Assembly: GCA_026934365.1 (NCBI GenBank)
Contig: JADHZE010000020.1
Span: 1 to 32,546, forward strand
Direction of reading: 5' to 3'
DNA from: Isoptericola sp. QY 916
GTDB lineage: Bacteria > Actinomycetota > Actinomycetes > Actinomycetales > Cellulomonadaceae
Length of the DNA stretch: 32,546 bases
Shown: piece after piece, positions 8,956-23,704 of the stretch
How positions within the stretch are numbered: position 1 is the first letter of the stretch
Layout: each line of letters starts with the position of its first letter
Notes under the pieces: model-generated
The model's input: the letters and a program-made list of their open reading frames with translations, nothing else
What the model was told of the DNA's origin: nothing
Database searches by the model: none
Program-made: the position numbers and the translations under genes

Positions 8956-9559
8956 GGCTCCCCCTCGTGCGCATCGTCACGGCCGTGGAGACGTCGTCGA
9001 CCGTCGGTGCGGCGCGCCCCGCGAGGTCGGCGTGCGTCCACGCGATCCGCAGCACTCGGTCGGCCCCGCGCAGGCTGAGCACCCCCCGGTCGACCATCTG
9101 CTCGATCGGCTGCAGCACCCCCGGTGCTCGTGACCGCTCCCGCAACCACCGCCCGGGCACCTCCGCGTTCGTGGTCCAGGGTGTCCCGGCCAGCCGCTCG
9201 CGGGCGGCGGCCCGCGCCTGGGCGACCCGGGCCCCGACCACCGCCGACGACTCCCCCTCCGACCGTGCCGTCCGTTCCGCCCGCGTCACGGGCAGGACCT
9301 CCACCTGAAGGTCGACGCGGTCGAGCAACGGCCCCGACAGACGACCGAAGTACCGGCGCTTCGCCATGGGCGTGCAGGAGCAGTCCAGCCCTTTGTTCAC
9401 CGACGCCATCCCGCACGGGCAGGGGTTCGCCGCCAGCACCAGCTGGAAGCGTGCCGGGTAGCGGGCGGCTCCCCCGGAGCGGTGCAGCACCAGCTCCCCC
9501 TGCTCGAGCGGCTGGCGCAGCGTCTCCAGCACGCGGGACGGGAACTCGGGGGCCTCGTC
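8948..9559 (-). pseudogene. comM: comM (yifB) 3' fragment, severed by the element
   Basis: This encodes the C-terminal 201 residues of ComM after the Walker B Asp-Glu: APEFPSRVLETLRQPLEQG, the AANPCPCG Cys motif, LLDRVDLQVEV (sensor/arginine-finger region) and the C-terminal helical lid. Native ComM reads LFLDEAPEF or close to it; here the codons before DE come from the element. A frame open from 9679 runs from the element into this fragment, so a fusion lacking the ATPase P-loop could be made, but it could not be a working helicase. Together with 22416-23345 it forms one uninterrupted 511-codon gene. Confidence 0.93.
9554..9559. other. Left attachment-site core (CTCGTC)
   Basis: The hexamer CTCGTC is shared with the right junction at 22416-22421, within a slightly longer match GGnCTCGTC. 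To the left the sequence is comM; to the right it is element DNA. The complement GACGAG encodes the Walker B Asp-Glu. The exact crossover dinucleotide cannot be decided by inspection. Confidence 0.8.
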
Positions 9560-9647
9560 GATTGAGGTTGATTTACACACGACCTCGTAAGTGAGCCCCG
9601 GCAAGCGTTGCAGCGCTTCCGGGGCATGGCCGGGAAGTAGGCCCGAC

Positions 9648-9881
9648 GTGCAGAACAATACCCAAACTGTCCGCGCCACGGAGCCTGTCGGCTACCTCGT
9701 GGCCGAGCGGCGCCCGTGGACGAGCAATCCGCACTGGATCATCGGTGACGATTGGTCTCGCTACTGCGAAACCCGGGCAGAGGCCGAAGAGGTGGCCGAG
9801 CGCTGGCGCACTCATGGTCACGGCATCCCCGGGGACATCGGCGTCCTTGCGCTCGTACCCGTGGCGGGTGACGCACGGTGA
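9648..9881 (+). CDS. Small hypothetical protein, first gene of the element's left operon
   Basis: The 77-residue product contains GYLVAERRPWTSNPHWIIG and a Glu/Ala-rich helix (EAEEVAERWRTHGHG), a soluble alpha/beta-looking protein without a family I recognise. The GTG at 9648 is preferred over an upstream GTG at 9591, which would give 96 residues, because a GGGAAG lies before 9648 and the upstream extension is low in recognisable structure. Its stop overlaps the next start as GTGA, so it is coupled to the HTH gene. It lies just inside the left attachment site. Function unknown. Confidence 0.6.
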   Translation: MQNNTQTVRATEPVGYLVAERRPWTSNPHWIIGDDWSRYCETRAEAEEVAERWRTHGHGIPGDIGVLALVPVAGDAR

Positions 9882-10462
9882 CCCTGACCGCGCACGCGCC
9901 GACGCGCGACATCCTGACCAGCCTCGCCCGTGGAGGCTGGGGCGAGCTCTCCGGGTCTGAGCACAAGGGCACACGCGCCATGCTCCGTGCCCTGGTGGAC
10001 CTGCTCCCCTACGGCTCCGGGGAAGGGCTTGTGACGGCCTCCCAGATTGCCGACGTGTCCGGCTATTCCGAGCGCTGGGTGAGGTCGCGCCTGACGGAAC
10101 TCGAGGCGCGCGGGCTGATCCTCTGGCGTCGTGGCGGTGTCGTCGCGGGCAAGTGCGTGCCGTCGCACGTCCGGATCGTCAAGGGCAGCGTGCTGGCCCT
10201 CCTGAGGCTTGCCCGATCCGCGAAGGACGCCGCCATTGAGGCGCGCCGCGCGGTGACGCGACGCCGGGTTGAGGGCCTGACGTTCGTCATGGGCAAGCGC
10301 CGCCACTCGTCCATCCGGAAGTCGCTGCAAGCCTCCTCCCCCTCACGGGGAAGTCTCCCGACGCTTCCCCGTCATGGCCTTTCATCCGTTTCTGAATGCG
10401 GCCACGGCGAGCCGCGAGGCTCCGCCTACTGCGCCCTCTGCCGCCGTGGCATCCCTGCCTGA
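9878..10462 (+). CDS. Winged-helix DNA-binding protein with C-terminal Cys motif
   Basis: The 194-residue product has a helix-turn-helix at about residues 50-95 (VTASQIADVSGYSERWVRSRL then TELEARGLILWRRGG), the pattern of a winged helix with a beta wing. A basic region (about residues 110-145) follows, then a short C-terminal CGHGEPRGSAYCALCRRG motif that could bind a metal. Proteins of this kind are common in actinobacterial plasmids and integrative elements, where they may regulate excision or replication. The GTG start overlaps the upstream stop. A role as replication initiator cannot be excluded, but I see no motif that proves it. Confidence 0.7.
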   Translation: MTLTAHAPTRDILTSLARGGWGELSGSEHKGTRAMLRALVDLLPYGSGEGLVTASQIADVSGYSERWVRSRLTELEARGLILWRRGGVVAGKCVPSHVRIVKGSVLALLRLARSAKDAAIEARRAVTRRRVEGLTFVMGKRRHSSIRKSLQASSPSRGSLPTLPRHGLSSVSECGHGEPRGSAYCALCRRGIPA

Positions 10463-10487
10463 CCAACCAACAACAAGGAGCAGCCAT

Positions 10488-10814
10488 ATGAGCACCCACC
10501 AGACCCGGACGTTTACTGACGAGGTCAACGCTGCGTTCATCCACCTCGACGAGATCATGAGCAGCGCCGTCCGCGAGATCACGTTTGCCAGCCTCAACTC
10601 CGGCGTCATCGACCGCGACGCCGCCCAGCACGCCTCGGACAGGATCGTGAGGCGCGCGGAGAAGGCCTACGAGCGCATCCTTGCCGACGTGCCGGCGCAC
10701 CTCGCCGCCCGCCAGCTCGCAGCCGTCCTCGCGGAACTCACGGTCTCCACCACTAAGACGTGGGTTGTTGCCACCCACGTCGCCATCAGCTCAGCACGGA
10801 AGGACGACGAGTGA
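10488..10814 (+). CDS. Hypothetical helical protein
   Basis: The 108-residue product is predicted to be mainly helical (EVNAAFIHLDEIMSSAVREI; ASDRIVRRAEKAYERILADV), with no recognised domain, signal peptide or membrane span. The ATG at 10488 is supported by AAGGAG seven bases upstream; the frame is open further upstream, but that part overlaps the previous gene and looks non-coding. Its stop overlaps the next start as GTGA, placing it in one operon with the DUF2637-like gene. It may be a partner of that membrane protein; this rests only on position. Confidence 0.65.
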   Translation: MSTHQTRTFTDEVNAAFIHLDEIMSSAVREITFASLNSGVIDRDAAQHASDRIVRRAEKAYERILADVPAHLAARQLAAVLAELTVSTTKTWVVATHVAISSARKDDE

Positions 10815-11515
10815 GCAGCCACCGCCTCAACCCAGACTCGCGGCCCGTCCTGTGGACCATCGCGACGGGCACCACCATCGTCTTCCTCGCGTCTTTTGCC
10901 CTGTCATCCGTCGCGCTCTACGACGTCGCCGGCTGGGCACACGTGCCCCACGGGCTCGCGTGGGCCGTCCCGGTCATGCTTGACGTTGCGCTCGTTGTCT
11001 ACAGCCTCTCCGCGCTCGTCAGGCGAGCTCGCGGACGGTCAGCATGGTTCTCATGGTGCCTCCTCGGCGCCTTCACACTGGTCTCGCTTCTGGGCAATGC
11101 TGCGCACTCGCTGGGTATCCCCCAACCCGCGCAGCCCCTCGTCGGAACGGTCGTCGTGGCACTCGCCCCCGTCGCCGCACTTGCTGCGCTCGAGAACCTA
11201 GCCGGGCTGATCATCGCCAGGCCCGACGCTCGAGTGGCCCCTGCAACGGGAGAGCCGAGCACCGAGCACTCTGCCGTGATCCTCGAACTGCACACAGCGG
11301 AGGCCGAGGAGCTGGACATCCTGGGGACGCTCGAAAGTACCCATCCACGGACCAAGCGCACCCGAGAGAACCTAGCCACGATCTTGAATATGCAGCGCCG
11401 TGGCGCACGCCAGCATGAAATCGCCGACGCCCTAGGCATGTCCACCACGCTCGTCAAGACCGCGCTACGTGACATGCAAGCGGTCGGTCTAGTACGGGGA
11501 CGCTCTCGCGGTTAG
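10811..11515 (+). CDS. DUF2637-like membrane protein with C-terminal helix-turn-helix
   Basis: The 234-residue product has four hydrophobic spans within about residues 13-145 (around TIATGTTIVFLASFALSSVA, AVPVMLDVALVVYSLSALV, CLLGAFTLVSLLGNAA and VGTVVVALAPVAALAAL). A C-terminal HTH follows (about residues 195-230, REHEIADALGMSTTLVKTA-type). This layout matches the DUF2637/Spd-like proteins common on actinobacterial plasmids and integrative conjugative elements, where some are linked to plasmid spread. The GTG start overlaps the upstream stop. The end overlaps the convergent nuclease gene by four bases (TTAG). Presence here without a transfer ATPase is odd for a self-transmissible element. 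Confidence 0.78.
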   Translation: MSSHRLNPDSRPVLWTIATGTTIVFLASFALSSVALYDVAGWAHVPHGLAWAVPVMLDVALVVYSLSALVRRARGRSAWFSWCLLGAFTLVSLLGNAAHSLGIPQPAQPLVGTVVVALAPVAALAALENLAGLIIARPDARVAPATGEPSTEHSAVILELHTAEAEELDILGTLESTHPRTKRTRENLATILNMQRRGARQHEIADALGMSTTLVKTALRDMQAVGLVRGRSRG

Positions 11516-12540
11516 TCCCAGAACGCGCGAAGAGCTGTCCGGCGCGACTCCTCCGCCTCCACCCGGTTGAAATGGCCGGACGAAACACGGTAGATGACGT
11601 CGATACCGTACTTATTCAGCAATGCAACGTGCTCGTCGACAGGACGAGCTGGGAAAAGTCCCGCAACACGGTGCGGCCGATGCTTGACGCTGGGCGCATA
11701 GTGGAGGAGTTGGGCAATGACCTGCCGAACGGACGCCGTGTCAGAGGAACTCTTTGCCTCAATGAGCTCGTGGGAGCCGTTGATCTGGACCTGAAGGTCC
11801 GTGACCCCTGCCTTCGTGTATTCGCGACCATACTGAGCGTCGGAACCGAGAGTCGCGGCATATGTGCGGACTAGCGCGTTCTCTCCCCTCCTGACGAATC
11901 GTTCGCCAGCCTCTACCGTGTAAACCAGTTCTCCGACCTGCGCGTCCTCGATGTCTTTGAGGTCGACCTTGTCATCGTTCTCGAGCAACTCGTCTACGAG
12001 CCTGTCGCTTGCGTCGAGAACGTCGGGTGCGAGCGATGGATGCACGTCTAGGAGTGCGTCCAGGAGTCGCGCGCCCCGGATATCGTCGTACACGGCCATG
12101 GACTGGAAATGATTCGCAGGATTCAGGCCGAGAGGTTGGTTGATGAAAGCGTACGGTAGCTCTAGTTCAGCGAAGTAGGTCAAACTATAGATATGTGAAT
12201 ATGCACCCTTTTCCGGATGCTCAACCCAGATCTCCTTCGCGAACGCTTCGTTCTCGAAGCGGTATCCCACAACGCCGATCGCCCATCCTGCACCTTGGCC
12301 AGTGAAGACGACAACATCGCCTTCGTTAACGCGCATGATCTTCTGGCGGTTCGCCTCGTACGTGCCCCAAAAATGGACTTTCCCGCTCGGATGCCGTGCA
12401 AGAAGTTCGGTTCGCTGCTCCGAAGTTAGCGCCGCAGCCAGGACGGGGTCACCAATGTCCACGTACTTTTCCAGTGTTTGCTGGAGGTTTATTCGTCCAT
12501 CTTTTGCACCGCGGGAAGGGTGAACAAGCACTGTAGTCAC
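11512..12540 (-). CDS. PD-(D/E)XK nuclease with PUA/EVE-like N-terminal region, candidate restriction enzyme
   Basis: The 342-residue product has two parts. Residues about 50-130 (HFWGTYEANRQKIMRVNEGD, VVFTGQGAGWAIGVVGYRFE) resemble the beta-barrel PUA/EVE-like domains that sense modified bases; this is a tentative fold call. Residues about 240-285 carry a nuclease core: VTDLQVQ (Asp), HELIEAKSSS (Glu-x-Lys) and QLLHYA, a Q-x3-Y element as in RecB/Cas4-type nucleases. The whole suggests a modification-dependent or invader-directed DNA nuclease, cytoplasmic. The GTG start overlaps the MazG-like gene stop (GTGA), so the two are translationally coupled. I do not recognise it as a named system. 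Confidence 0.7.
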   Translation of the reverse strand: MTTVLVHPSRGAKDGRINLQQTLEKYVDIGDPVLAAALTSEQRTELLARHPSGKVHFWGTYEANRQKIMRVNEGDVVVFTGQGAGWAIGVVGYRFENEAFAKEIWVEHPEKGAYSHIYSLTYFAELELPYAFINQPLGLNPANHFQSMAVYDDIRGARLLDALLDVHPSLAPDVLDASDRLVDELLENDDKVDLKDIEDAQVGELVYTVEAGERFVRRGENALVRTYAATLGSDAQYGREYTKAGVTDLQVQINGSHELIEAKSSSDTASVRQVIAQLLHYAPSVKHRPHRVAGLFPARPVDEHVALLNKYGIDVIYRVSSGHFNRVEAEESRRTALRAFWD

Positions 12541-12947
12541 TCGACAGCTCCTTGGTCGGGCCGAAGTTTCGTGTACTTCGTCGCGTTCCCGCGCGAAAGA
12601 TCACGCGGATACCGCGTCTCGTTCTCATCGATCTTCTGAAGAGCGGCGTGGATCAGATCGACGTTCATGACATCCGCTAGTCGTACGAGGTAACTGAAGA
12701 CGTCAGCCATCTCGCTCTCAACGCGTCCGCGGTAGTCAGGATCATGACGCATCGCTTTACCGACCTCCTGGTCAGTCGACCACTGGAGCTCTGCGAGCAA
12801 CTCGCCCACCTCGCCAGCCAGCGCCATCGCCAGGTTGCGCGGGGTATGGAACTGCTGCCAGTCCCGCTCGGCGGCGAACTCCCGTAGCCGCGACGCCAGA
12901 TCCTTCAACTCATCCACCTGGCTGACTCTAGCGACCGCACCAGACAC
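12537..12947 (-). CDS. MazG-like nucleotide pyrophosphohydrolase
   Basis: The 136-residue product (GTG at 12947; a later GTG at 12917 would give 126) belongs to the all-alpha NTP pyrophosphatase group near iMazG and dCTPase. QFHTPRNLAMALAGEVGELL and EMADVFSYLVRLADVM contain the two metal-binding acidic pairs (ExxE and ExxD). Such enzymes hydrolyse (d)NTPs to monophosphates and pyrophosphate. In cells they clean nucleotide pools, and several defence-linked relatives deplete or degrade dNTPs. The gene is upstream of, and overlaps by GTGA, the PD-(D/E)XK nuclease, so the two products are made together. No clear ribosome binding site is visible, so the start is uncertain by ten residues. Confidence 0.8.
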   Translation of the reverse strand: MSGAVARVSQVDELKDLASRLREFAAERDWQQFHTPRNLAMALAGEVGELLAELQWSTDQEVGKAMRHDPDYRGRVESEMADVFSYLVRLADVMNVDLIHAALQKIDENETRYPRDLSRGNATKYTKLRPDQGAVE

Positions 12948-13073
12948 GGACCGGGCGGACTCAGGGCGAAGCCACAGCACCAATGGACTCCTGGGCGCGC
13001 GCCTCCGCCTGCAGGAAGCGACTTCACCCTGCCAAGCGGCGGCACCAGAGCCACGGTGCTTCATCCTGTTGTC

Positions 13074-13700
13074 ATGGACGTGCCAGACCTTGAGCCGGAG
13101 ACCTGGGTTGCCCTCGCCGCGGCGGGAGTAGCCCTCCTGGTAGGGCTCATCGGGCCGTTTGTGAACGCGCGCACCCAGCGACGTACCCTTGCTGCCCAGC
13201 GTCAGATGGCAAATGACGAACGCCTTTGGGTCAAGCGCGCAGCGCTCTACGAGGAGATCCTCCGTTGGTCGGGCGAGGCCCGCGGGAAGTTTGTCAACAT
13301 CGCCCAGGACGCCGTCGACGACGACGTGCCCGAAGTCATCCAGGGGTTTCTCGATGACGACGCCCCCTTCCCCCTTGAGATTCAGGTCGGGCTTGCGGCC
13401 TACGCCTCCGTGCACGTGAACGAACTGGCCATGGGCTTCCAGGACGCGCTGGCCGACACGGCGCGAGCGACATTGCGGCGCATCGAAAGTCCAAACACTA
13501 CGGACGCGGATCCGGACGACGAGTGGCTTCGGCTCTACGACCTCCATCGAGCCTACGCGAGACGCATGGCGCAGGTCATGTCAGACGAATTGGCCGGCAC
13601 CCCAATCACGAAGAATGTCAGCCTCCGAGAGAGAACCTACTTCTGGTTGCAGGACGTTCGCACCAGCGTTCTCCGACGCCCCGGTGGGGAACGAGAGTGA
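13074..13700 (+). CDS. Single-span membrane protein of unknown function
   Basis: The 208-residue product starts with one transmembrane span (about residues 8-30, WVALAAAGVALLVGLIGPFV). A basic, helix-rich segment follows (NARTQRRTLAAQRQMANDERL) and then a helical cytoplasmic domain with many Trp and acidic residues. An upstream in-frame GTG at 13056 is an alternative start. It is divergent from the MazG/nuclease pair, with about 125 bases between them for promoters, and convergent with the DUF4145-like gene. A short membrane anchor with a helical domain is a common layout for phage-defence effectors, but no known motif proves this. Confidence 0.6.
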   Translation: MDVPDLEPETWVALAAAGVALLVGLIGPFVNARTQRRTLAAQRQMANDERLWVKRAALYEEILRWSGEARGKFVNIAQDAVDDDVPEVIQGFLDDDAPFPLEIQVGLAAYASVHVNELAMGFQDALADTARATLRRIESPNTTDADPDDEWLRLYDLHRAYARRMAQVMSDELAGTPITKNVSLRERTYFWLQDVRTSVLRRPGGERE

Positions 13701-13756
13701 GCGGTCCCCTGAGTGAGTGGCTTAGCCCGGGGCTAGCGACGCGCTCCGCACTACCC

Positions 13757-14413
13757 TTAGGAGCCCGAATGCGGAGGCGGGGCCTGTCCAAGCATCTTGG
13801 CCATCGTGGCGCGAGCCTCGTACGCAACCTGCAAAAGGAGGTAGGTGAACGTACCGATCATTGTAGCCATATCCTTCTCGATGGCCGTGAGGTCGTGCGT
13901 CGCCCCGTTCCCCGACTTTCGAATCTGGTCCACCCAGGGCTGCATCTCGCTTGAGATGAGGCCCTTGTCTTGCAAGTGCCTCACCGCCTGCTCAAACGAG
14001 GGAGCACGACCATTGCCGTCTTTCGCAGGGAGCCCGCGCTCCACGGCGACATGAAGGAGGATCTTGCGGCACATCAGCACGGACGAGGTGTGGGCGCCGT
14101 TGGCGTGGCAATTGCGTACTTCGTTCCACGCGCTCTCGATGTCCTCCGGGAGACCGCCGACAGTCCCGAGCGGCGTGCTGCCCGGCGCAAGTTCGCCTCG
14201 GTTCGCCACGCTCCCCTGCCGGCAGCTCATGCATCGGAGCCACAGTGTCACGAAGCCCGGTCGCCGATCATCCAGGCTCTCAGCCGCGGCGATCACGAGG
14301 TGTTGTGCCCTTCCGCACGCCCGGCAATCGAGCTCGATCCAGTAGGACGAGTCGTCAGCACCGTGGCGGGCGGTACTGCTGACGACGGACAGGTCCTCGA
14401 TGACACTTCCCAT
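13757..14413 (-). CDS. DUF4145-like protein with N-terminal zinc ribbon
   Basis: The 218-residue product has CRAC and CMSC pairs about 33 residues apart near residues 30-65, consistent with a zinc ribbon. A helical domain follows with IESAWNEVRNCHANGAHTSS and VLMCRKILLHVAVERG, then NGATHDLTAIEKD. This order matches the DUF4145 domain, which I recall both as a free-standing protein and attached to type I-like restriction proteins. No catalytic site is evident; it may bind nucleic acid or a partner. ATG start at 14413. It lies 66 bases downstream of the four-span membrane protein gene on the same strand and converges with the single-span membrane protein gene. Confidence 0.72.
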   Translation of the reverse strand: MGSVIEDLSVVSSTARHGADDSSYWIELDCRACGRAQHLVIAAAESLDDRRPGFVTLWLRCMSCRQGSVANRGELAPGSTPLGTVGGLPEDIESAWNEVRNCHANGAHTSSVLMCRKILLHVAVERGLPAKDGNGRAPSFEQAVRHLQDKGLISSEMQPWVDQIRKSGNGATHDLTAIEKDMATMIGTFTYLLLQVAYEARATMAKMLGQAPPPHSGS

Positions 14414-14479
14414 GCCGAAAGATGCTAACTGTGGGACGGGCGGAGCACCACGGTCACCGTGAGAATCACCCGCAGGCCC

Positions 14480-15724
14480 TCAGGGGCGGTGGCGTCGATC
14501 CCGCCATCCGTCGAGAATCTCCGAAGCAATCTGCCAGCTTACGTCGGACAGTTCGCCCTTCAATTCTCGCTGTTCCGATTTACTGATAACCGCCAACACT
14601 CCAGCCTGATCAATCTCCCCCGAAGCAATATTCCCGATCTGCACCTCCCAAGACAGGTGTTTGTTGATCCTCCGGATGCCCTCTACGACTCCTGCAGAAT
14701 CGAGTTTGCCAATCAGGTCCTCAGCAACGACGACACGATCTACCCCGTCGGCGAAGCGCCTCACATTCGCATAGGCGACTGCCAGAAAGTGGGTTAGACC
14801 TTGGTGTTCGCACAGGGCGCTCCAGGTGCGCCAACCGACTTTGTCGAGGGAGTCCTGCAACTGTTCCTCAGTCTCGATTTGCAGCAAGAATCTGGGCATT
14901 TGTTCCCAAAGTTGCCGGACGGCAAGGAAATCGGTAACCCATGCGTAGTAGTCGGCGGAATAGGGAGACTTGTTCTCCGCCTTGACTTCGTCACTCCGGC
15001 GTTCCAGTTCGTGCACAAGGGAGTCGAAGAGCGGTGTTGTGGCCAAGCCGAAGTACATCGCACTCGCCAACCTATCACTTGCTTCTAAACGCTTCTGCTT
15101 GGCCTGGACAAACAGCACAGCTCCAATGAGTAGACCAACGAGTGTCACGACTATCGAACCGAGCGACGGCGCGAGGATAGAAAGCTGGAGTGCCAGGATC
15201 AAAATCGGCAGCCACGCCGCGCGCCGAAACTCGGCTTCGCTGCGGACGCGGTCGTATTCTTGAAACTGATCAGTTGACTTCGAAGCGAGGCTTACATCCG
15301 CAATGTCATACTCGACGATCACCAGTTCGAACGCCACTTCGCGGACCGCGGCTGGATAGTCACTGAGCTGCTCGCGTACAGCATCTCGCAGGTAGCTCAA
15401 TTTGAGACCGTTGTTGCGGGCCGACTTGTTCACCTTGCGTCCACTCAGCCCGTAACGCCGAGGTGCATTCCGGTCCAAGAATGACGAGATTGCGGTGGCA
15501 AAAACGCCCAGAAGATACACCGAGAAGGCCAAGATGCCGAGTGCGGCACTGCTAGGTAGGCGCTCCACAATTTGGCGCAGCTCCATCGCCAAGGGCCAAT
15601 TGGAGTATGCGGACGGATCAACGATCTGCACGAGCACCATGGCAACGGCCGTCCATAGGCAGCCTGCAACAAATGGCGTTCTGAACTCGCGCACTCCAGG
15701 CAACACGGCTGCCATAAATCCCAC
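14480..15724 (-). CDS. Four-span membrane protein with large cytoplasmic domain, unknown function
   Basis: The 414-residue product has two N-terminal spans (about residues 16-38 and 58-82) and a basic segment with RNAPRRYGLSGRKVNK. A soluble helical section follows, then a second hydrophobic pair (about residues 170-210, LPILILALQLSILAPSLGSI then VTLVGLLIGAVLFVQ), and finally a C-terminal soluble domain of some 200 residues. GTG at 15724 is the first start; ATG at 15715 is equally possible. Base composition is clearly less GC-rich than the chromosome, a sign of transfer. I recognise no family. Membrane proteins of this size in defence islands often act as pore-forming or sensing parts, but this is inference from context. 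Confidence 0.65.
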   Translation of the reverse strand: MGFMAAVLPGVREFRTPFVAGCLWTAVAMVLVQIVDPSAYSNWPLAMELRQIVERLPSSAALGILAFSVYLLGVFATAISSFLDRNAPRRYGLSGRKVNKSARNNGLKLSYLRDAVREQLSDYPAAVREVAFELVIVEYDIADVSLASKSTDQFQEYDRVRSEAEFRRAAWLPILILALQLSILAPSLGSIVVTLVGLLIGAVLFVQAKQKRLEASDRLASAMYFGLATTPLFDSLVHELERRSDEVKAENKSPYSADYYAWVTDFLAVRQLWEQMPRFLLQIETEEQLQDSLDKVGWRTWSALCEHQGLTHFLAVAYANVRRFADGVDRVVVAEDLIGKLDSAGVVEGIRRINKHLSWEVQIGNIASGEIDQAGVLAVISKSEQRELKGELSDVSWQIASEILDGWRDRRHRP

Positions 15725-15747
15725 TATGCCTCCAGCAATCCTCGTAA

Positions 15748-15987
15748 CTAGGCTGCCACCGTACCGTGGCGGTGGGCTACACCCCTCACCGCATCAGCGG
15801 CTGTCCCGGGGGCATCACCCCCACGCTCCAGGCGGAGGTCCGCCAGCGTATAGCAGATCGGATCCTGTACGGGTTCTGGAGTTTTGATGGCCGGCAGGCC
15901 AGGGCACGTATCCAGTCTTTTCTTGCGATGTACCCTGTAGCGATTTTCCGCCGGGGACTGCGGGTATCCGCGCAGTTTGTGCGCCAT
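15748..15987 (-). CDS. Possible 79-residue protein between the HNH and four-span genes
   Basis: This short frame fits exactly into the 270-base space between the HNH gene stop (15995) and the next start (15724), with 7- and 23-base gaps, as an operon member would. GGAGG precedes the ATG, but only one base separates them, which is too close for a normal ribosome site. The product is basic at the N-terminus and shows no known domain. An opposing + strand frame (15766-16035) covers the same stretch, and third-position composition does not decide between them. The region could equally hold no gene. Confidence 0.3.
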   Translation of the reverse strand: MAHKLRGYPQSPAENRYRVHRKKRLDTCPGLPAIKTPEPVQDPICYTLADLRLERGGDAPGTAADAVRGVAHRHGTVAA

Positions 15988-15994
15988 GCCTCCA

Positions 15995-16828
15995 TTACAA
16001 GCGATCCGGAGAGGGGACTGGCACTGGTCGCGTAAGTGCGTCCGCGTCCCGCTGCTTCACGGGTCTGCGTCGTGGGTTCCAGGTCATCCTGCTCCGCACG
16101 GGTCGGGTGATATTCGTCCATTCTTTGCCGAGGCGCGGGATGTAACGCGCGATCCGCGGATCGGAAGACGCTCGAACACAAATGATCAGGTTACCGATAA
16201 TCAAGGTCGTCACGCCAAACCGCACGTCCCAACTTCCACCGTCGTAGTACCCACCGATGGATCCCGGCCCTTGAAGATGTGAATGCTCCCAGCGCCCTAA
16301 CCCCACGCTCGTGCCATTCGGCACCTCAAGCGCAGCCGCGAACTGCTTAATCTCGGGATCGGTCCATGTAATTGTCGCCATGTCTTGCGACTGCCACATC
16401 ATCGCTGTCTTGACCGCCCAGGACGACAGGTCCCGAAGCTCGCGTTCGTGGAGAATAGCGCGCCGGTTGGCCAATAACTGGGTGAGGGGCGAACTCACGC
16501 GCTCCTCGAGCTCGTGCATCCATCCGTTGTTGCAGCCGGCGCATACCGCCTTGGTTGTCAGATCTCGTAGGGGTTGCGCTCGTCCCACCGACTCTGTTTC
16601 GACATCCACGCGCTGATCCGGCGTCATGCCGAAGAGCTCCACGGTCCTGGGCGCTCCGGGCTTGGGAAGCACCGTGAATCCGCGTTCCGCGAGTTGCGCT
16701 GAGAGCCAACGGGGCCAGACGTGCTCCTTCGTAAGAGGTCGACTGGCGCACCAGAGGCATGATCGCGGGCCGTTTTCGCGCCGGCGCGCCTTCTCAGCTT
16801 CCGCTCGAAGGGCACCTCGTTCGATCAC
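15995..16828 (-). CDS. HNH-type endonuclease-like protein
   Basis: The 277-residue product has CLWCASRPLTKEHVWPRWLS (about residues 24-43) and VCAGCNNGWMHELEERV (about residues 95-111). Two Cys pairs would hold a structural zinc, EHVWPxWL provides the catalytic His, and CNNGWM matches the closing part of this HNH subgroup. The remaining 165 residues form an uncharacterised domain with many Trp and Gly residues. Such proteins are frequent in mobile and defence regions and probably nick or cut DNA. GTG start at 16828. The same strand continues with the possible small gene and the four-span membrane gene. Confidence 0.7.
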   Translation of the reverse strand: MIERGALRAEAEKARRRENGPRSCLWCASRPLTKEHVWPRWLSAQLAERGFTVLPKPGAPRTVELFGMTPDQRVDVETESVGRAQPLRDLTTKAVCAGCNNGWMHELEERVSSPLTQLLANRRAILHERELRDLSSWAVKTAMMWQSQDMATITWTDPEIKQFAAALEVPNGTSVGLGRWEHSHLQGPGSIGGYYDGGSWDVRFGVTTLIIGNLIICVRASSDPRIARYIPRLGKEWTNITRPVRSRMTWNPRRRPVKQRDADALTRPVPVPSPDRL

Positions 16829-16964
16829 GTGCCCAACCTACTGACATGACGCACCATGTGAGAGCAGTTGCCTGGGTTTCACCCGGCACCGGACTCGCGC
16901 CGGAGCGTGCTCGCCTGGTGGATTCTCCAGAGGTCGCACCGCTCCGGCGCTTCCGGCTCATCTC

Positions 16965-17450
16965 CTAGTCCACCCGTGCGTGAGGCTGGGGACGCCCGAC
17001 CTCGGCGCTCAGTTCGAGGTCGTACCGGCGATGGCACCGGTTGCACCGCGGGTAGTAGTCCCGAAGGTCGACGCTGTACCGCAGGTAGCGGCCCTCACGC
17101 TCCTCGATGCGCTCTCGCGTTCCGCTGTAGTAGGCGTAGGACCACTGACTTGCCGGACGCCCGCAGTCGAAGCACTCGTGGTCGCTCGCCTTGCCCCGGA
17201 CCTTGCGTACCCGCTGGTGCACAGCGTCGTAGGTCACGGTGTCGTCAGACTGGCGTACGAAGTATCCAGAGCATGTTCGACACTGGTTGGCGCGACCAGC
17301 TTGGAGGTGTGCGAGTTGGACTCGCGACTCGCGCCCGCAGTCGCAGATGACGAGCACATAGCGGCGTCCATCGTTGCCACGTTCGGGCTCGCCAAGGACC
17401 GTGCGTTTGCCGAACCTGCTTCCAGTGAGGACCGGATCCGCTGCGATCAT
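16965..17450 (-). CDS. HNH-like zinc-finger protein of phage type
   Basis: The 161-residue product has an N-terminal zinc knuckle (CDCGRESRVQ...CRTC, about residues 36-60). A C-terminal segment follows with VHQRVRKVRGKASDHECFDCG, then ASQWSYAY, YSVDLRDYYPRCNRCHRRYD. The latter pattern is the His/Cys layout of a small HNH-like protein common in actinobacteriophages. It could be a nuclease or a DNA-binding zinc protein. The ATG at 17450 overlaps the stop of the coiled-coil gene upstream (ATGA), so both are made from one message and may work together. 136 bases without a gene separate it from the HNH gene at 15995-16828; I see nothing in them. Confidence 0.68.
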   Translation of the reverse strand: MIAADPVLTGSRFGKRTVLGEPERGNDGRRYVLVICDCGRESRVQLAHLQAGRANQCRTCSGYFVRQSDDTVTYDAVHQRVRKVRGKASDHECFDCGRPASQWSYAYYSGTRERIEEREGRYLRYSVDLRDYYPRCNRCHRRYDLELSAEVGRPQPHARVD

Positions 17451-18556
17451 GCAGCAGCCTCGAACGTGAAGGTGGCCAGGTAGATGCTGACCGTGCCCCG
17501 GTCCTTCTTGCGGTGGTAGCCGGTGCTGGTCTGCTGGATGACGTCTCCGACGTTCATGGACTCGCGGGTGAGGTCGGCGGTGCGGATGCGGCCGATCCCT
17601 TCGATGACCTTCCCGACCCGGCCCTTGACGACGGACTCGGCGCAGCGCTCCGGGTAGGTGGCCGGGATGCGGTGCTCGTACCCGGGCGTAACCCATGCGT
17701 CGAAGCGGACCTGGATCGTGACTGTGCGGATCCCGGCGGCGACGGTGCTCGCGGTGACGGCAGAGCGGATCACCTTGGCTCCGAGTCCATTCACGTCGAC
17801 GACCTTGTACCCGTCTGCTCCCATGATGATGGCTTGGCTATTGGGCTCCTTCGTCGTCGCCTGCATGGTGAACAGCAGTCCGTCAGCGAAGCTGCGAACC
17901 ATGTAGTCCTGCACCTTGCCGGGCACGGTCGGCATCTCAGGCCAGACGCCGGTCGACTCGATCGTGAAGGCGTCCCGCTGTCCCGACGTCGCCACGGCAT
18001 GGACTGTGAAGGTCCCCTGGACTGCAGCGGAGGACAGAGCACGCTCCACATCCTTTGGGTTGATCGGCGTTCGCATGAAGCGTGGGCGGTGGAAGTGCGC
18101 CTTGACCGTGCCGGCGAGTGACCCCCAGGGCTGTGGGTGTCGGGCGGGCTCCGCGGCGTGAGGCTGAACGAGGTATAGAACTGGGAGCTCCTTGCCCGGG
18201 TCGTCAGGCAGGTCGTCGACGACCTTCACCGTCACGCCCAGTTCGTCCCTGAGGCCTTCGACCATCGCATCCGCCGCGATAGGCAGGAACGGTGCACCCG
18301 CCTTCAGTCGCTTCAGTTCCGACTCGGATCCCTCGAGCAGGATCCGGGCACGCTCGACGTTCGCCTGCGAGGTCGCGAACTGCTCCGTCGTCACGCCCTC
18401 GTCGCCGGCCCCGAGTCGCGTCTTGAGCTCCTCATGCTGCTGTTCCGCCTCCTCGAGGGCGGCGGTCCGGTGCTGGATGGTCTGCTCAGCCGCTCCAACC
18501 TTCGCCTCGTGCTGGGCGATGGCGTCGGCCTTGGTGTTCTTAGCCTTGATAGGCAC
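17447..18556 (-). CDS. Coiled-coil N-terminus plus unknown domain, hypothetical protein
   Basis: The 369-residue product begins with a long charged helix (about residues 5-85, AEQTIQHRTAALEEAEQQHE and later VERARILLEGSESELKRL) that looks like a coiled coil. A beta-rich region follows from residue 90 to the end. No transmembrane segment, signal peptide or recognised catalytic motif is visible. The GTG start at 18556 has AAGGAG about ten bases upstream. It overlaps the downstream HNH-like gene by ATGA, and a repeat-rich 270-base region precedes it, suggesting separate regulation. Coiled-coil plus nuclease-like pairs occur in defence systems, but function is unknown. Confidence 0.62.
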   Translation of the reverse strand: MPIKAKNTKADAIAQHEAKVGAAEQTIQHRTAALEEAEQQHEELKTRLGAGDEGVTTEQFATSQANVERARILLEGSESELKRLKAGAPFLPIAADAMVEGLRDELGVTVKVVDDLPDDPGKELPVLYLVQPHAAEPARHPQPWGSLAGTVKAHFHRPRFMRTPINPKDVERALSSAAVQGTFTVHAVATSGQRDAFTIESTGVWPEMPTVPGKVQDYMVRSFADGLLFTMQATTKEPNSQAIIMGADGYKVVDVNGLGAKVIRSAVTASTVAAGIRTVTIQVRFDAWVTPGYEHRIPATYPERCAESVVKGRVGKVIEGIGRIRTADLTRESMNVGDVIQQTSTGYHRKKDRGTVSIYLATFTFEAAA

Positions 18557-18826
18557 TTGGATGAATCTCCTTGCATTGATGTTGTGTGGTGATGGCCGCG
18601 CGGACGCGCGGCGGTTGACGAGTGATCACGAACAGAGGTCCTGGATCTGGCCATGCTCCTTGGACCTTGGTTCCTTGATCTTGTTCCCCCTTCCTTCTTC
18701 CCCGTTGGAAAGAAAGAAAGGGTGCGACCTGTTTGTGCAGGTCAGAGAGTCAGGGTGGTGACGGTCGGTCACCGAATCCGCTGGTTCGGCAACTCTCGGT
18801 CACCGAACACGCGGGGTCGGTGAATG
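18557..18826. promoter_or_regulatory. Gene-free region with iterons and several dyads
   Basis: No gene is seen here. From left to right it holds a hairpin of gccgcgc/gcgcggc arms (18595-18601 and 18606-18612), a long pyrimidine/purine hairpin (about 18688-18702 and 18707-18722), a dyad gacctg/caggtc (18726-18731 and 18738-18743), and two exact copies of tcggtcaccgaa (18765-18776, 18796-18807) plus a partial tcggtga (18817-18823). The repeat starts are 31 and 21 bases apart, close to whole helical turns, which suggests protein binding on one DNA face. It may be the control region of the coiled-coil/HNH-like pair or a replication or excision site. Confidence 0.6.
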
Positions 18827-19228
18827 TCAGGAACCGGGTTGGCGGCCAGGGCACGGCTTCTCACCTTGGGCCTTGCTGCCGTTCTGCACACTCATCCCAG
18901 GGAAGACGATGCACTCGCTCCAGGACCCTGGGGAGAAGACGCCCCAGTCGGTGAGCCGCTGGATCGCCTTGGTGACCCCGTGACGTGTGGGCTTGCGAAT
19001 CTCGCCCGCGCCCGGTCCGGACTTCACGACGTACGCCAGGACCTCACGCAGCTCGCTGCGACCGAAGTGGGCGTGGCCGGAGAATTCCAGGCGCGCACGG
19101 GCGAAGGCCACGATTCGGACGTCCATGGACGCCTCGACGTTGTTCGCGAGCTTCTCGTCCGCGACAGCGCTGACGCCACGCCAAGGCACACCGGCACCAA
19201 AGTTCACGCCCTGACGGGGCTTCCTCAC
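18827..19228 (-). CDS. Small DNA-binding-like protein (possible winged helix)
   Basis: The 133-residue product contains GRSELREVLAYVVKSGPGAG, then KPTRHGVTKAIQRLTDWGVF, a helix-turn-helix-like arrangement followed by a short strand. It resembles small element-encoded regulators, but no named family is evident. The GTG at 19228 overlaps the stop of the upstream HTH gene (GTGA), so the two are coupled. The gene ends at the iteron cluster (18765-18823), which could be its binding site. Confidence 0.6.
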   Translation of the reverse strand: MRKPRQGVNFGAGVPWRGVSAVADEKLANNVEASMDVRIVAFARARLEFSGHAHFGRSELREVLAYVVKSGPGAGEIRKPTRHGVTKAIQRLTDWGVFSPGSWSECIVFPGMSVQNGSKAQGEKPCPGRQPGS

Positions 19229-19647
19229 GCGGCAGGCCGAGGATTGAGCGTCCCCCAGCCAGCGGCAGTACCGAATGTGTCGAGCACTTTCGATCCCAGG
19301 ATGTCGATGCGCTGATCTGTAGAGTGCTCAGCGATCCAGCCCTCATGACGTAGCAGATCGAGCCAGCCTGTGAGCGTCTCAGAGGAGATGCCCACCTCCG
19401 TAGCGAGGTCGGTGCCGCGCATGAGTACCACGGGCACTCTCGCCAGGATCGCCAGGCTCAGCCGCTCCCGTACGGAGGTCGGATCATTCGGGGCACTGCG
19501 CGTTCCACGCGACAGTCGCGTGAGCCGAGACCGAAAGACGTGCGGCTTCGCCGCATCAGTGGGCGTTACGAGTGGGACGTGCGTGATCCAGGGCGCGACG
19601 TCGCCAAGCGTTGCCCAGTTGCCAAGAACAGGCGAGACAGAGTCCAT
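19225..19647 (-). CDS. Winged-helix regulator-like protein
   Basis: The 140-residue product has a Val/Pro-rich N-terminus (about residues 1-55) and a C-terminal winged helix with RGTDLATEVGISSETLTGWL, DLLRHEGWIAEHSTDQRIDI. The frame is open well upstream, but the ATG at 19647 is favoured by GGAG eight bases before it and by the non-coding look of the upstream extension. It is the first of two overlapping HTH-like genes and is divergent from lsr2. It probably regulates element genes; targets are unknown. Confidence 0.6.
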   Translation of the reverse strand: MDSVSPVLGNWATLGDVAPWITHVPLVTPTDAAKPHVFRSRLTRLSRGTRSAPNDPTSVRERLSLAILARVPVVLMRGTDLATEVGISSETLTGWLDLLRHEGWIAEHSTDQRIDILGSKVLDTFGTAAGWGTLNPRPAA

Positions 19648-20053
19648 GCAGAAGCTCCAGGGGAAAGAAAGGCAGCGCGAACGTTGCGCTGGCTCCCAGC
19701 CGGTGCGGGGGGCATGGTTTCCTCGTGTCCTTCTCTTCGATGAGTCGCACGACATTCGTTGTCGTCGAGCTTGGCTAAACCCAGAGCTAGTTGATGTAAC
19801 TGGTTCGTTCTGGGCGACGTCTGACACTACACCTAGTCGTCGGGGCGCGTGCGGGAATCGGGGTGTGGCGAACGCCGCGTTCCAGGTCCCTTGACGCCGC
19901 CGGGCGGGTAGGGCAAATTTCGCCCGCAGCCGTCTCTGTTCGTGTCCACAAGCAACTGACCCGGGACAGCGAGGTGTCTGCCATGCGCTGAAAGCTTCAG
20001 GCCTCGAACTCGACCGGCAGGGAATGGCCGATTCCTCCGTTAGCCTTTGTGAC
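19648..20053. promoter_or_regulatory. 406-base divergent intergenic region between HTH gene and lsr2
   Basis: No convincing gene is present; short frames on both strands lack ribosome sites and coding character. It should hold the divergent promoters of the two-gene HTH operon and of lsr2. AT-richer patches lie near 19770-19830. A TAGCCT (20041-20046) ends seven bases before the lsr2 ATG, with no ribosome site, so a leaderless lsr2 transcript is possible. Confidence 0.4.
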
Positions 20054-20422
20054 ATGGCCCAACGGATCGAGACCACAATCTTCAGCGACCTTTCCGGTGC
20101 TGAAGATGCCGAGCAGTACACCTTCGCCGTACAGGACTCGTCCTATGAGGTCGACCTGACGAAGGACGAAGCGGCCGAGCTGTTCCGCCTGCTCGACCCT
20201 TACGTCAAGGCAGGCCGCAAGACCTCCCGTAGAACGACTCACAGCACTCCCCCGTCCCGGCCCAACCGACGGGGCACGGCAGGCAACCCAGGCATCTACG
20301 GGCGCGTGAAGGAATGGGGCCGTGCCAACGGATTCGATGTGCGCGACCGTAGCCGACCGAGCCACGCCCTGGTCGAGGCCTACGAGAAGGCGACCGGCGA
20401 GACCGTCAAGGTAGGCAGATAG
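20054..20422 (+). CDS. lsr2: Lsr2-family nucleoid-associated xenogeneic silencer
   Basis: The 122-residue product matches Lsr2 end to end. MAQRIETTIFSDLSGAEDAE and YEVDLTKDEAAELFRLLDPY form the N-terminal oligomerisation domain. A basic linker (KAGRKTSRRT) follows, and the C-terminal DNA-binding domain has GRVKEWGRANGFDVRDRSRP and ALVEAYEKATG. Lsr2 is the actinobacterial analogue of H-NS and coats AT-rich DNA; phages and prophages are known to carry copies that silence their own genes or antagonise the host. The AT-hook-like RGR of the mycobacterial protein is RSR here. It is on the + strand against most element genes and is followed by a strong terminator. Confidence 0.92.
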   Translation: MAQRIETTIFSDLSGAEDAEQYTFAVQDSSYEVDLTKDEAAELFRLLDPYVKAGRKTSRRTTHSTPPSRPNRRGTAGNPGIYGRVKEWGRANGFDVRDRSRPSHALVEAYEKATGETVKVGR

Positions 20423-20437
20423 CACCAAACAACACCC

Positions 20438-20480
20438 GAAGACCCCTCTACGACGCTCAGAACGCCGTAGAGGGGTCTTC
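20438..20480. terminator. Strong bidirectional hairpin terminator after lsr2
   Basis: A perfect 15-bp stem (20438-20452 with 20466-20480; left arm gaagacccctctacg) closes a 13-base loop. It lies 15 bases after the lsr2 stop and between that gene and the oppositely oriented 62-residue gene, so it can serve both strands. Confidence 0.9.
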
Positions 20481-20507
20481 TCGTGCTTCCCCGGCGCTGA
20501 GGCTGGC

Positions 20508-20696
20508 TCAGGCCATCTGAGAGCCGTCTACGCGTTCCGGGTCGCTCCGACGCCTCCATAGAGCGTCGCGGGCTCGGGCCACGGCTACCCAGGTCTCGGC
20601 GTCCACGTCGTCGGCGTCGTCGAACCGGAGCCATGCGGCATGCTCTCCCCCCTCGTAAGCACCTGCCGCCGTGCGTTCGCCCCTGCTCGCGTTCAT
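20508..20696 (-). CDS. 62-residue acidic protein coupled to the integrase
   Basis: The ATG at 20696 overlaps the integrase stop as ATGA, and the frame ends just before the lsr2 terminator. The product is small, acidic in the middle (RFDDADDVDAETW) and basic near the end (RRRSDPERVD), with no known motif. Translational coupling to the integrase makes a role in controlling recombination possible, for example as a directionality factor, but size and sequence give no direct support and such factors are very diverse. Confidence 0.5.
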   Translation of the reverse strand: MNASRGERTAAGAYEGGEHAAWLRFDDADDVDAETWVAVARARDALWRRRSDPERVDGSQMA

Positions 20697-22375
20697 GCCC
20701 GCCGCGAGCCGCCGAGTCGCCGGACGCGCTCCTCGAGTTCAGGCGGGAACCGCAGTTCCACACGACCCCTACGAAGGCGCCAGTACTCGACAGTGGGCGC
20801 CTCGTCCCCTTCCGGCTCGCCCATCACGACTCCCGCGAACATCTCCTCGGCGGATGAGAACTCGTCGGGGAGCACGACGACGTGCACCCCGGCCGCGATG
20901 AGTTCCGCGTTCCGCTCCTCGTCTGTCGCGAGGGACTCCCAGCGCTCCCGGTATGTCTCGCCCGTTGGCGTCTCGACCCATCGGCCCGGGACGACCGGCG
21001 AGAGGGTCAGCTCCTCGAGGCGCGCCGAGAGCGCCCGGTGTTGCGAGCGGAAGCGTTCAAGGCTTTGTCCGCTCTCGTAGAGACCGGCACGGCGGTCGGC
21101 TTCCAGGTCGTCGAGCGCACGGTTCGTGTCCGCAATCTCAGCCGCAAAGTCTTCGCCAGGAACGTACGTGCGGCGGATGACCTCAACTTCCCCAACCTCG
21201 CCGAGGAACGCGTCGGTCACTAGGTCGTCCAGACGGTCACGGCGGTGCGACTTGCCCCCAGCCTCGCAATACTTGCCCGCGATCGCCTTGTTGCCGCACC
21301 GGTAGTAGGCGTGGTTGCGCCCGGTGACGGTGTACATGCGCGTACCACATGAGCAGTGCGCCACACCAAGCAGCATCGACCTGTTCGCTCGGTTCGCCGC
21401 CGCGAGAACCGGGTTCTTTCTCTCCGCCAACACAGCTCGGAGCCGCTCGAACGTCGCACGGTCGATGATCGGCTCCGCACGCAGGACGGGCTGGCCGTCA
21501 TCGCCCCGCACAAGTCGAGTCACGCGGCGCCTCTTGCCGTCCTCACCAGTGACCATTTCGCCAACCTCCGCCCAGCCAAGGAGCGTGTGGGAGGCAAGGA
21601 GCGTAGAAACGTTGCCAACTCGCCATGACGCTCCTTTCGCCTCCTTGCCGTTGCGGATGCGCTGGGTGTCCAGGGGTGACGGAACCTCCTGGTCGTTGAG
21701 CATGGCGCACACGCTGTTGATACTCTGCCCGCCCAGTACGCGGTCGATCATGTCCCGCAGGATCGCTGCTGTGTTCATCCCCTCCGGGTCGTCATCCACT
21801 ACCAGGCGATGCCCAGCACCATCGTCGGCAGGCACAGCCCGATAGCCGTACGGGAGCCATCCCCCGCGCCAGCGGCCCTGACGCATCAGCTCGTTGAAGG
21901 ACTCCTTAGCGCGGTAGCGCATCGTCTCAAGTTCCATCTGAGCGAACGACGCGAGAATGCCGAACAGGAACTCACCTACCGGCGTCGTCAGGTCGTAGCC
22001 GTCCGCCACACTTGCGAGCTGCTTGCCGTTCGCCTTGCACCACTCGTGCAGTTGCCACGTGTGGAGGGTCGAGCGCGAGATCCGGTCCAGCTTCCACGAA
22101 CAGGCGATGTCCCACTCACGGGCACGGGATTGGTCCCACGCTGCCGACTCCTCGGAGCGGTTCGTCTCATGCCCGACCGTCGACGGAAGCCACTGTCCGA
22201 ACCCGGGTCGCTTCCACGGGGCGACTGATCCAGACACATCGATGTCCTCCGCCCAACCGACTACCTCGTGCCCGTGCAGTTGCGCCCACTGCCCCACTAG
22301 GTCGCGTTGGCGCTCAGGCGAAGTGGACTCTTCGCGTTCCCTGGATAGGCGGATGACGCCCAGCACTCGTGCCAT
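20693..22375 (-). CDS. Large serine recombinase (integrase)
   Basis: The 560-residue product has the three domains of large serine integrases. The N-terminal catalytic domain includes VIRLSRERE with the nucleophile Ser11, SPERQRDL, and SWKLDRISRS with the active-site Asp-Arg pair. A recombinase domain follows (RWRGGWLPYGYRAVP, SINSVCAMLNDQEVPSP), and then a zinc ribbon with CSCGTRMY, YYRC and YC (about residues 330-370) with a coiled-coil region (about residues 410-460). It would carry out attP x attB recombination using the site in comM. ATG at 22375 is chosen since the catalytic domain begins there; a GTG at 22405 would add ten residues. The gene starts 41 bases from the right attachment core, the usual arrangement. 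Confidence 0.95.
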   Translation of the reverse strand: MARVLGVIRLSREREESTSPERQRDLVGQWAQLHGHEVVGWAEDIDVSGSVAPWKRPGFGQWLPSTVGHETNRSEESAAWDQSRAREWDIACSWKLDRISRSTLHTWQLHEWCKANGKQLASVADGYDLTTPVGEFLFGILASFAQMELETMRYRAKESFNELMRQGRWRGGWLPYGYRAVPADDGAGHRLVVDDDPEGMNTAAILRDMIDRVLGGQSINSVCAMLNDQEVPSPLDTQRIRNGKEAKGASWRVGNVSTLLASHTLLGWAEVGEMVTGEDGKRRRVTRLVRGDDGQPVLRAEPIIDRATFERLRAVLAERKNPVLAAANRANRSMLLGVAHCSCGTRMYTVTGRNHAYYRCGNKAIAGKYCEAGGKSHRRDRLDDLVTDAFLGEVGEVEVIRRTYVPGEDFAAEIADTNRALDDLEADRRAGLYESGQSLERFRSQHRALSARLEELTLSPVVPGRWVETPTGETYRERWESLATDEERNAELIAAGVHVVVLPDEFSSAEEMFAGVVMGEPEGDEAPTVEYWRLRRGRVELRFPPELEERVRRLGGSRRA

Positions 22376-23345
22376 GCGCCCCAGTGTGACATGGGTGTGT
22401 CTCAACTTGACAGGACTCGTCCAGGAGCAGCACCCCCCGGTGCGCGCGGGACACCGCGCCGGGCCGGGCCAGGCCGCTGCCCCCGCCGACGATCGCCGCC
22501 GGGGTGGCCGTGTGGTGCGGGTCCTCGAAGGGCGGGCGCGTCAGGAGGCCGTTCCCGGGGTCGAACGTCCCGGCCACCGAGTGCACGGACGTCACCTCCA
22601 CGGCCTCGGAGGGCGTGAGGTCCGGCAGGATGCCCGGCAGCCTGGCGGCGAGCATGGTCTTGCCCGCACCCGGTGGCCCGACCAGGAGCAGATGGTGCCC
22701 ACCGGCGGCCGCGACCTCGAGCGCCATCCTCGCGTGCACCTGCCCGACCACCTCCGCGAGGTCCCCCGGCGACCGGCGCGGCGCGGACTGCCGCGCCGCC
22801 CGGACCGGGTCCAGCACCGGCGGCTCGGCGAGCTCGCCGCCGTGGAGCAGCACCACCTCTGCCAGGCTCGACGCCGCGTGGACGCGCGCACCGGGGACCA
22901 GCCGGGCCTCGTCCGCGTCCCCGGTCGCGACCACGACGTCGGGGCACCCCGCCTCGACGGCCGCGGCGACCGCAGGGAGCACCCCGCGCACGGGCTGGAG
23001 GCGCCCGTCGAGGCCGAGCTCCGCCAGGTGCACCACCCGGTCCAGCCCGGCCCGGGGTACCACGCCGTCCCCCGCGAGCACGGCGACCGCGATGGCGACG
23101 TCGAACGACGAACCGGACTTGCGCAGCGACGCGGGCGACAGGTTGACGGTGATCTTGCGGTGCGGCCACTTGATGCCGGTGGAGAGCACCGCGGCCCGCA
23201 CCCGCTCGCGCGACTCGTTGAGCGCCGTGTCCGGCAGCCCCACCAGCGTGAACCCGGGGACGGACGCCGCGAGCTGCGCCTGCACCTCCACGACGTGCCC
23301 GGTCAGCCCGGTGAGGGCGACCGCCGCCGTCGTCCCGAGGCCCAT
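22314..23345 (-). pseudogene. comM: comM (yifB) 5' fragment with element-derived tail
   Basis: Residues 1-310 are the N-terminal part of ComM: the Lon-like ChlI domain (SVPGFTLVGLPDTALNESRE), the P-loop GPPGAGKT at about residues 223-230, and LLLDE of Walker B. Beyond 22416 the frame runs 33 residues into the element before stopping at 22314, overlapping the integrase start region in another frame. ComM is a hexameric AAA+ helicase that drives branch migration during natural transformation. This product lacks everything after Walker B and should be inactive. The ATG at 23345 overlaps the yraN stop by one base, as in intact loci. Confidence 0.93.
22416..22421. other. Right attachment-site core (CTCGTC)
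   Basis: This matches the left core at 9554-9559. The sequence on the right resumes comM. In the joined element ends, gtgtgt (22395-22400) and acacac (9575-9580) are each exactly 15 bases from the core, forming the inverted arms expected of a serine-integrase attP. Confidence 0.8.
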
Positions 23346-23704
23346 CAGAGCACCCCCACGAGGTGCTCGACCTGCGCGGCGCCCGCCCGCGGCAGCACCA
23401 CGGCCACCACGTCGACCCGGATCTCGCGGCAGCGCACGTCCCGGTGCTCCACCAGCCACTGCCCCGTGAGCCGGCGGATCCGGGACAGCTTGGCGGCCGT
23501 CACCGCCTCCGCGGGGTGGCCGAACGCGGTGCCCCGTCGCGTCTTCACCTCGATCGCGACCAGCACGTCGCCGTCGCGCGCGACGAGGTCGAGCTCGCCT
23601 CCCGTGCCGTGCCAGTTGCGCTCGAGCACCTCCATGCCCTGCGCCTCGACGTGGCGCGCGGCCACCCGCTCCCCGTACCGCCCGACGGCGTCCTTCGCCC
23701 GCAT
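23345..23704 (-). CDS. yraN: YraN/UPF0102 endonuclease-like protein
   Basis: The 119-residue product has the UPF0102 pattern: GRYGERVAARHVEAQGMEVL, NWHGTGGELDLVARD (Glu and Asp of a PD-(D/E)XK-like core) and VAIEVKTRRGTAFG (Glu-x-Lys). It is small and cytoplasmic and usually sits next to comM; its role is thought to be in DNA metabolism but is not settled. The ATG is preceded by GGAGGTGG. Its stop shares one base with the comM start, so the two are coupled. 145 bases without a visible gene separate it from the DUF2469 gene upstream. Confidence 0.92.
   Translation of the reverse strand: MRAKDAVGRYGERVAARHVEAQGMEVLERNWHGTGGELDLVARDGDVLVAIEVKTRRGTAFGHPAEAVTAAKLSRIRRLTGQWLVEHRDVRCREIRVDVVAVVLPRAGAAQVEHLVGVL

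Follow-up and report, generated by a model that had tools for sequence, protein, structure and literature searches.

The question raised by this stretch of Isoptericola sp. QY 916 DNA (32,546 nucleotides, hereafter the window; one contig of a 4.43-Mb draft assembly in 438 contigs) is how comM, which encodes a YifB family Mg chelatase-like AAA ATPase, came to lie in two pieces on either side of a foreign element, and why the break falls where it does. Site-specific integration of the element into an attachment site (attB) within comM, at the Walker B codons, is very probably the correct explanation as a whole.

The 5' part of comM (codons 1-310; 22416-23345, minus strand) runs into 33 foreign residues, and the gene resumes beyond the element on the same strand, covering codons 309-511 with the shared core (8951-9559) or codons 311-511 without it (9553 down to 8951). 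As the initial annotation had reported, both junctions carry CTCGTC, at 9554-9559 and 22416-22421. When the flanks were joined with one copy of this core kept, the 310 and 201 codons yielded a single open ComM of 511 residues, in frame as predicted, with the junction at D309-E310 in the string GVLLLDEAPEF; these two residues we take to be Walker B, and we likewise use Walker A and Walker B as names of the ComM motifs throughout. In comM sense the core reads GACGAG, and the crossover lies somewhere within those 6 bp. The Pfam Mg_chelatase profile is divided between the pieces, the N-piece matching positions 1-119 and the C-piece positions 112-204, and a search of joined ComM against the host assembly returned the two window pieces as sole matches. 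A full-length serine integrase adjoins one junction, in agreement with the earlier proposal that a serine-integrase element splits comM at its Walker B Asp-Glu codons.

The CTCGTC repeat was rejected as stand-alone evidence because the hexamer is too frequent in the window, with 60 copies observed versus 46.2 expected (1 of 100 shuffles reached that count). The insertion is proven by the in-frame join, by the uninterrupted comM that 14 of the 18 genus members carry and by another insertion, in Isoptericola sediminis (G002), at the very same codons. Relatives lacking the element thus have the intact gene that had been anticipated, and a split without an element, which would have spoken for another cause, was not seen among the 18. 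An artefact of assembly or binning, conceivable in a draft of 438 contigs, is extremely unlikely: a single contig spans both junctions, yraN and dprA follow on in the flanks, and the same comM site is occupied in other assemblies. Because the same type of junction occurs in independently assembled genomes, assembly error is an improbable source of the split.

The four split genes of the genus (4/18) differ from one another. The integrase of G002 is 63-66% identical to that of the window, and its element is of similar length (12,686 bp versus 12,856 bp), with an 11-bp shared core (CTCGACGAGGC in comM sense); in both elements the right arm before the core reads CAACTTGACAGG. Matches in the G002 element (E <= 1e-3) were found for 6 of the 16 open reading frames (ORFs) of the window element, namely the integrase, a trio at the left end (72, 49 and 67% identity) and two weak ones, indicating that the ends of the element are kept while the middle turns over. 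In G008, comM is split at codon ~84 by a serine integrase of another lineage (B). G011 carries a lineage B integrase, 92% identical to that of G008, at codon ~84 on one contig (L072 9568), and a left end of type A, the type of the window element, against codon ~310 on a second contig (L073 7042); neither a type A integrase nor the middle of comM (about codons 85-304) was found in this genome. As its C-part matches in two frames and its middle was not found, the G011 comM looks dead; it holds two elements in one comM, perhaps later fused by a deletion.

The inserted element occupies 9560-22415, 12,856 bp between the cores. Its large serine integrase (20693-22375, minus strand) is full length, with Resolvase, Recombinase and zinc-ribbon domains all above Pfam cut-offs, and matches the integrase family phrog_95 (E 2e-99). 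The gene start at 22375 is close to the core at 22416-22421, which fits the arrangement of integrase gene by attachment site with a short core; by domain content and gene position the protein may be classed as a large serine recombinase of the phage type. The closest integrases in phage records, from mycobacteriophages and Rhodococcus phages, show 36-38% identity to it across 89-98% of the query (best 20 matches listed), and none of the 959 phage records that match the integrase reaches 60% identity or more. These nearest serine integrases are presumably of the Cluster A type.

Next to the integrase are a gene for an Lsr2-like nucleoid protein (20024-20422, plus strand) and an ORF (19225-20121, minus strand) whose matches to helix-turn-helix families are weak, staying below Pfam cut-offs, and whose true start is probably internal. 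The left-end trio, all on the plus strand, consists of a helix-turn-helix-like gene (9878-10462; 72% and 75% identity in type A relatives), a small ORF (10374-10814; 49%) and a DUF2637 gene (10760-11515; 67-69%). The DUF2637 protein matches phrog_733, labelled 'excisionase' (E 2.5e-13), which is no more than a hint of a directionality factor. The middle cargo (11512-18556), most of which has no equivalent in the G002 element, includes a MazG-like gene (12537-13547), a DUF4145 gene (13757-14413) and an ORF matching phage HNH-endonuclease families (16965-17696), all three on the minus strand, along with several uncharacterised ORFs. PADLOC, applied to 8 proteins, gave two weak matches alone (PD-T7-4, E 4e-4; LmuB, E 0.01).

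What kind of element this is was approached through the 16 larger ORFs. Comparison with PHROGs matched no capsid, terminase, portal or tail family, and a prophage was rejected on that ground; Pfam matched no relaxase or FtsK/TraB type gene or other conjugation or replication gene among the 16 (DUF2637 alone is not diagnostic), and an integrative and conjugative element, including the actinomycete kind, was likewise rejected. Islands of the AbaR type (Tn7-like) carry transposase genes of the tniA/tniB type, and no transposase match occurred among the 16 ORFs, so that identity was also set aside. With neither phage structural nor conjugation genes matched, the element seems small and non-autonomous. 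It might be a phage satellite riding on a helper phage, with a size of ~12-13 kb and a cargo that turns over; we consider this possible but rather doubtful. The idea accords with the lengths of three elements with related integrases (12,856, 12,686 and about 13,082 bp, the last from Antribacter gilvus, described below), the lack of structural matches, the phage affinities of the integrase among the matches listed and the MazG-like, DUF4145 and HNH-like cargo, but three sizes are few, no packaging or helper-responsive gene was recognised and a mobilizable element would look alike.

In a sample of 396 genomes of the order, judged from a per-genome match table, comM matched in 386; 35 odd-looking genomes were searched again and 14 stretches fetched, while four further odd ones (G154, G218, G299 and G061) lay outside the re-search, the best match in G299 being full length. 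Twelve interrupted genes were found among the 386. Nine are broken at codon ~310 (G000, which is the window genome, G002, G011, G078, G158, G179, G293, G364 and G405), two at codon ~84 alone (G008 and G240; G011 has this as its second site), and one, G056, at Walker A, where GGCCCGCC of Gly-Pro-Pro is common to both sides. The parts of comM lie on different contigs in G078, G179 and G011. A serine integrase is present inside the element in G000, G002, G078, G179, G293, G364, G158, G008, G011, G240 and G056, and it adjoins a junction in every case except G240.

Some further comM loci stood apart from these twelve and were not counted with them. In the one-contig genome G337 (L141), the N-part of comM extends to codon ~311 and the C-part was not found; a gene with DUF2326 and ABC-3C CTD10 domains follows, and no integrase was noticed in 17.6 kb. 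G292 (L144) has two extra N-fragments of comM on one contig and a full-length comM elsewhere. Two Evtepia phage records, PV036427.1 and PV036445.1, contain an N-terminal portion of comM that stops close to the Walker B codons (query 17-308); its neighbours in PV036427.1 (L145 5956-6855) are a cytosine methylase gene and a gene for a SacI-like restriction endonuclease.

The serine integrases at codon 310 fall into lineages A (window and G002), C (G078, G179 and G293; 83-87% identity within the lineage) and D/E (G364 and G158; 50% between the pair), with 23-28% identity between lineages. On a tree of 37 rows, in which the G293 row carries additional residues at its start and a background row is identical to G008, they do not form one clade; at least three label changes are forced by well-supported branches, whereas the codon-84 integrases form a single group. 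The earlier suggestion that a conserved motif serves as a stable target was thus supported, and the search that had been proposed did reveal other integrases at the same codons. Convergence of separate integrases on codon 310 appears from these sequences to be the better reading, though not a proof. Close relatives of the window integrase look rare, since a survey of the 396 genomes at E <= 1e-60 recovered only the window and G002, and a scan of genome contigs only three loci.

The nearest integrase outside comM, 44-46% identical to that of the window, came from a smaller sample of relatives. In Antribacter gilvus (G019) a TadA-family ATPase gene is cut at a TVEEARE motif, and this integrase sits between its two parts, in an element of about 13,082 bp with an 11-bp shared core, GAGGAGGCCCG (L150 8280 onward, L005 3226 onward). 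According to available passages of PMC4322843, transformation of Micrococcus luteus requires both tad clusters, with possible polar effects noted by the authors. This class of genes may thus also have a part in DNA uptake.

dprA was meant as a control and matched in 385 of the same 396 genomes, but at least four copies are interrupted (G315, G325, G276 and G185), so that it fails to separate comM from other competence genes; the four are a lower bound, because only 28 of the genomes with at least two matches were re-searched, and G403 was ambiguous. All four dprA genes are broken at the RFLxRNR motif by inserts of 9 to 17 kb, and differing serine integrases adjoin the junction in each (L146-L149, of one family, f19). 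For lepA (TIGR01393), a highly conserved gene without a role in competence, no element was found in 391 matching genomes. The best match had an E value below 1e-270 in 387 of these; of the remaining four, G255 has two adjacent overlapping pieces that resemble a frameshift, and G117, G186 and G266 give partial matches in fragmented drafts. The difference between comM (12/386) and lepA (0/391) has a Fisher p of 0.0002, to be used as a guide only since the genomes are related; for comM versus dprA p was 0.07.

Several of these results weigh against integrase-directed settlement at Walker B or against its extension to competence genes at large. The shared core of the window element is only 6 bp, and the junctions of G364 and G158 share only 3 to 6 bases. 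The codon-310 element of G405 has a tyrosine, not a serine, integrase; it is ~24 kb long (L135 11805, L134 near 760), TTTAACTT occurs at its two ends in inverted orientation, no relevant shared core was found at its comM junctions, so that it may be another kind of element. The three label changes on the tree could equal one gain and two losses. The genomes are related, and the order counts are therefore not independent: four of the twelve interrupted cases belong to the genus of the window, and one is the window itself. The dprA-lepA difference is not significant (p 0.06), and lepA is the sole non-competence control gene. Finally, the ComEC channel domain was not found in the host assembly, a draft of many contigs in which a gap is possible. 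That domain is present in 12 of the 13 genomes searched, all with damaged comM, the exception being the window assembly, and any benefit to this strain from blocking transformation is consequently doubtful.

On the integration reading, which we still prefer, the integrase would have recombined the element's attachment site (attP) with attB inside comM, at the Walker B Asp-Glu codons; the enzyme encoded in the window presumably made the insertion itself. The insertion truncates ComM. It had been claimed that insertion destroys the ATPase site, and the AAA+ domain is indeed truncated, but the Walker B pair survives: the N-stub retains Walker A and Walker B, loses the remaining AAA+ domain and ends in the foreign residues. 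The Asp-Glu codons are present in both stubs because the core is common to both, and any loss of function would be due to the truncated domain and not to removal of Asp-Glu. In the host, comM stands in a minus-strand row yraN-comM-dprA with overlapping ends. The final base of yraN (23345-23704) is also where the comM start codon begins, and dprA (7585-8955), from its listed start, overlaps the end of the comM ORF by 8 bases; the 12.9-kb insert separates dprA from the upstream part of this row, with probable loss of ComM function and perhaps also of dprA expression. Since the motif is fixed, its codons make a good target, and carrier lineages would gain twice, from a site that drifts slowly and from weaker recombination with incoming DNA able to remove the element.

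The second of these gains may be superfluous. Conservation of the DNA could by itself determine the choice of site: integrases would settle in dispensable genes that evolve slowly, and it would be incidental that comM, dprA and tadA have a role in competence. We regard this as just short of an even prospect. Junctions fall at conserved motifs (Walker B and Walker A in comM, RFLxRNR in dprA, TVEEARE in the TadA-family gene), and the failure to find a ComEC domain in the host assembly fits as well; the portion of PMC10083194 at hand adds a prolyl isomerase as a shared target. Yet lepA, with its very high conservation, showed no element, and the same portion of that work finds competence genes to be strongly enriched among targets. 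Selection for loss of transformation itself may play a part, as is argued in the accessible parts of PMC4774983 and PMC10083194. Tentatively, and with rather low confidence, one may picture an order-wide guild of anti-transformation elements, in which unrelated integrases repeatedly evolved to cut comM, dprA and a TadA-family ATPase gene at catalytic or signature codons, so that a single site would serve as a durable attB and ensure that the gene is inactivated. Walker B of comM would be the peak of such targeting, two elements per comM would be possible, and a family of ~13 kb would have moved between comM and the TadA-family gene.

A different possibility, raised in the initial annotation but not supported by the present data, is that the element acts as a switch akin to active lysogeny, excising conditionally, restoring ComM and returning. 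For this the in-frame join and the ratios of nonsynonymous to synonymous substitution (dN/dS) are relevant. In a set of five genomes (G004 being left out), dN/dS of the two comM halves was 0.08 and 0.10 between the window genome and G010, against 0.12-0.15 and 0.18-0.27 for pairs without the window genome. The window halves are thus as constrained as between intact relatives, which means that the insertion is recent or that the gene is restored at times. A recent insertion explains the same data, however; the G011 gene looks dead, no ComEC domain was found in the host assembly, and no directionality factor was identified beyond the phrog_733 lead, so we consider a switch improbable.

Should the guild exist, it would represent anti-transformation elements in a phylum in which transformation has hardly been studied. 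Convergence at the level of the codon opens the way to testing whether elements settle where they do because of motif conservation alone or because transformation is lost, and the pairs of empty and occupied species within one genus are material for such a test. The integrases with their inferred attachment sites are also candidates for genome-engineering tools in Actinomycetota.

Among known systems, the comK prophages of Listeria undergo regulated excision; like them, the window element lies in a competence gene, although comM is a helicase-type ATPase gene and comK a regulator. Disruption of comK is also named in the available part of PMC4774983, which describes mobile genetic elements in comM of Aggregatibacter, Acinetobacter, Mannheimia, Francisella and Pseudomonas and reads them as a shield against removal by transformation. 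There, as here, comM is disrupted, but by elements using another integrase (CF65_00446-like), and in the phage collection the break in the Acinetobacter records falls close to comM query residues 286-294, not 309-310. The initial annotation had named comM as an island hotspot reached by a different, AbaR-type transposition mechanism. The hotspot stands, but it is not confined to AbaR-like transposition, as serine recombinases in the gene had already been published (portions of PMC10083194 and PMC9203015).

In the accessible text of PMC10083194, serine recombinases favour 'magnesium chelatase' and competence genes, and the 'magnesium chelatase/ATP-dependent protease' gene is the target of 12.4% of predicted site-specific integrases; this gene is probably ComM/YifB, as window ComM matches the YifB family Mg chelatase-like ATPases. 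Both data sets contain distant serine integrase lineages in the same gene, whereas here the codons were mapped (Walker B, Walker A and ~84), with two sites in one comM. Wolbachia phage WO of the sr1WO group, as described in the part of PMC9203015 at hand, shares a serine recombinase, the magnesium chelatase gene and gene parts on both flanks; these are prophages of an endosymbiont, and the comparison is at the level of the gene. Given these precedents and the published competence-gene enrichment, the window element belongs to a known class. In the open-licence literature, supplements excluded, we found no report of integration at the Walker B codons of comM. What is new here is the codon map within one order, the convergence, the conserved-gene control and the doubly occupied comM. 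Also new are the recognition of dprA as another target, with the codons at which it is cut, and the finding that a single integrase clade connects comM with a TadA-family gene.

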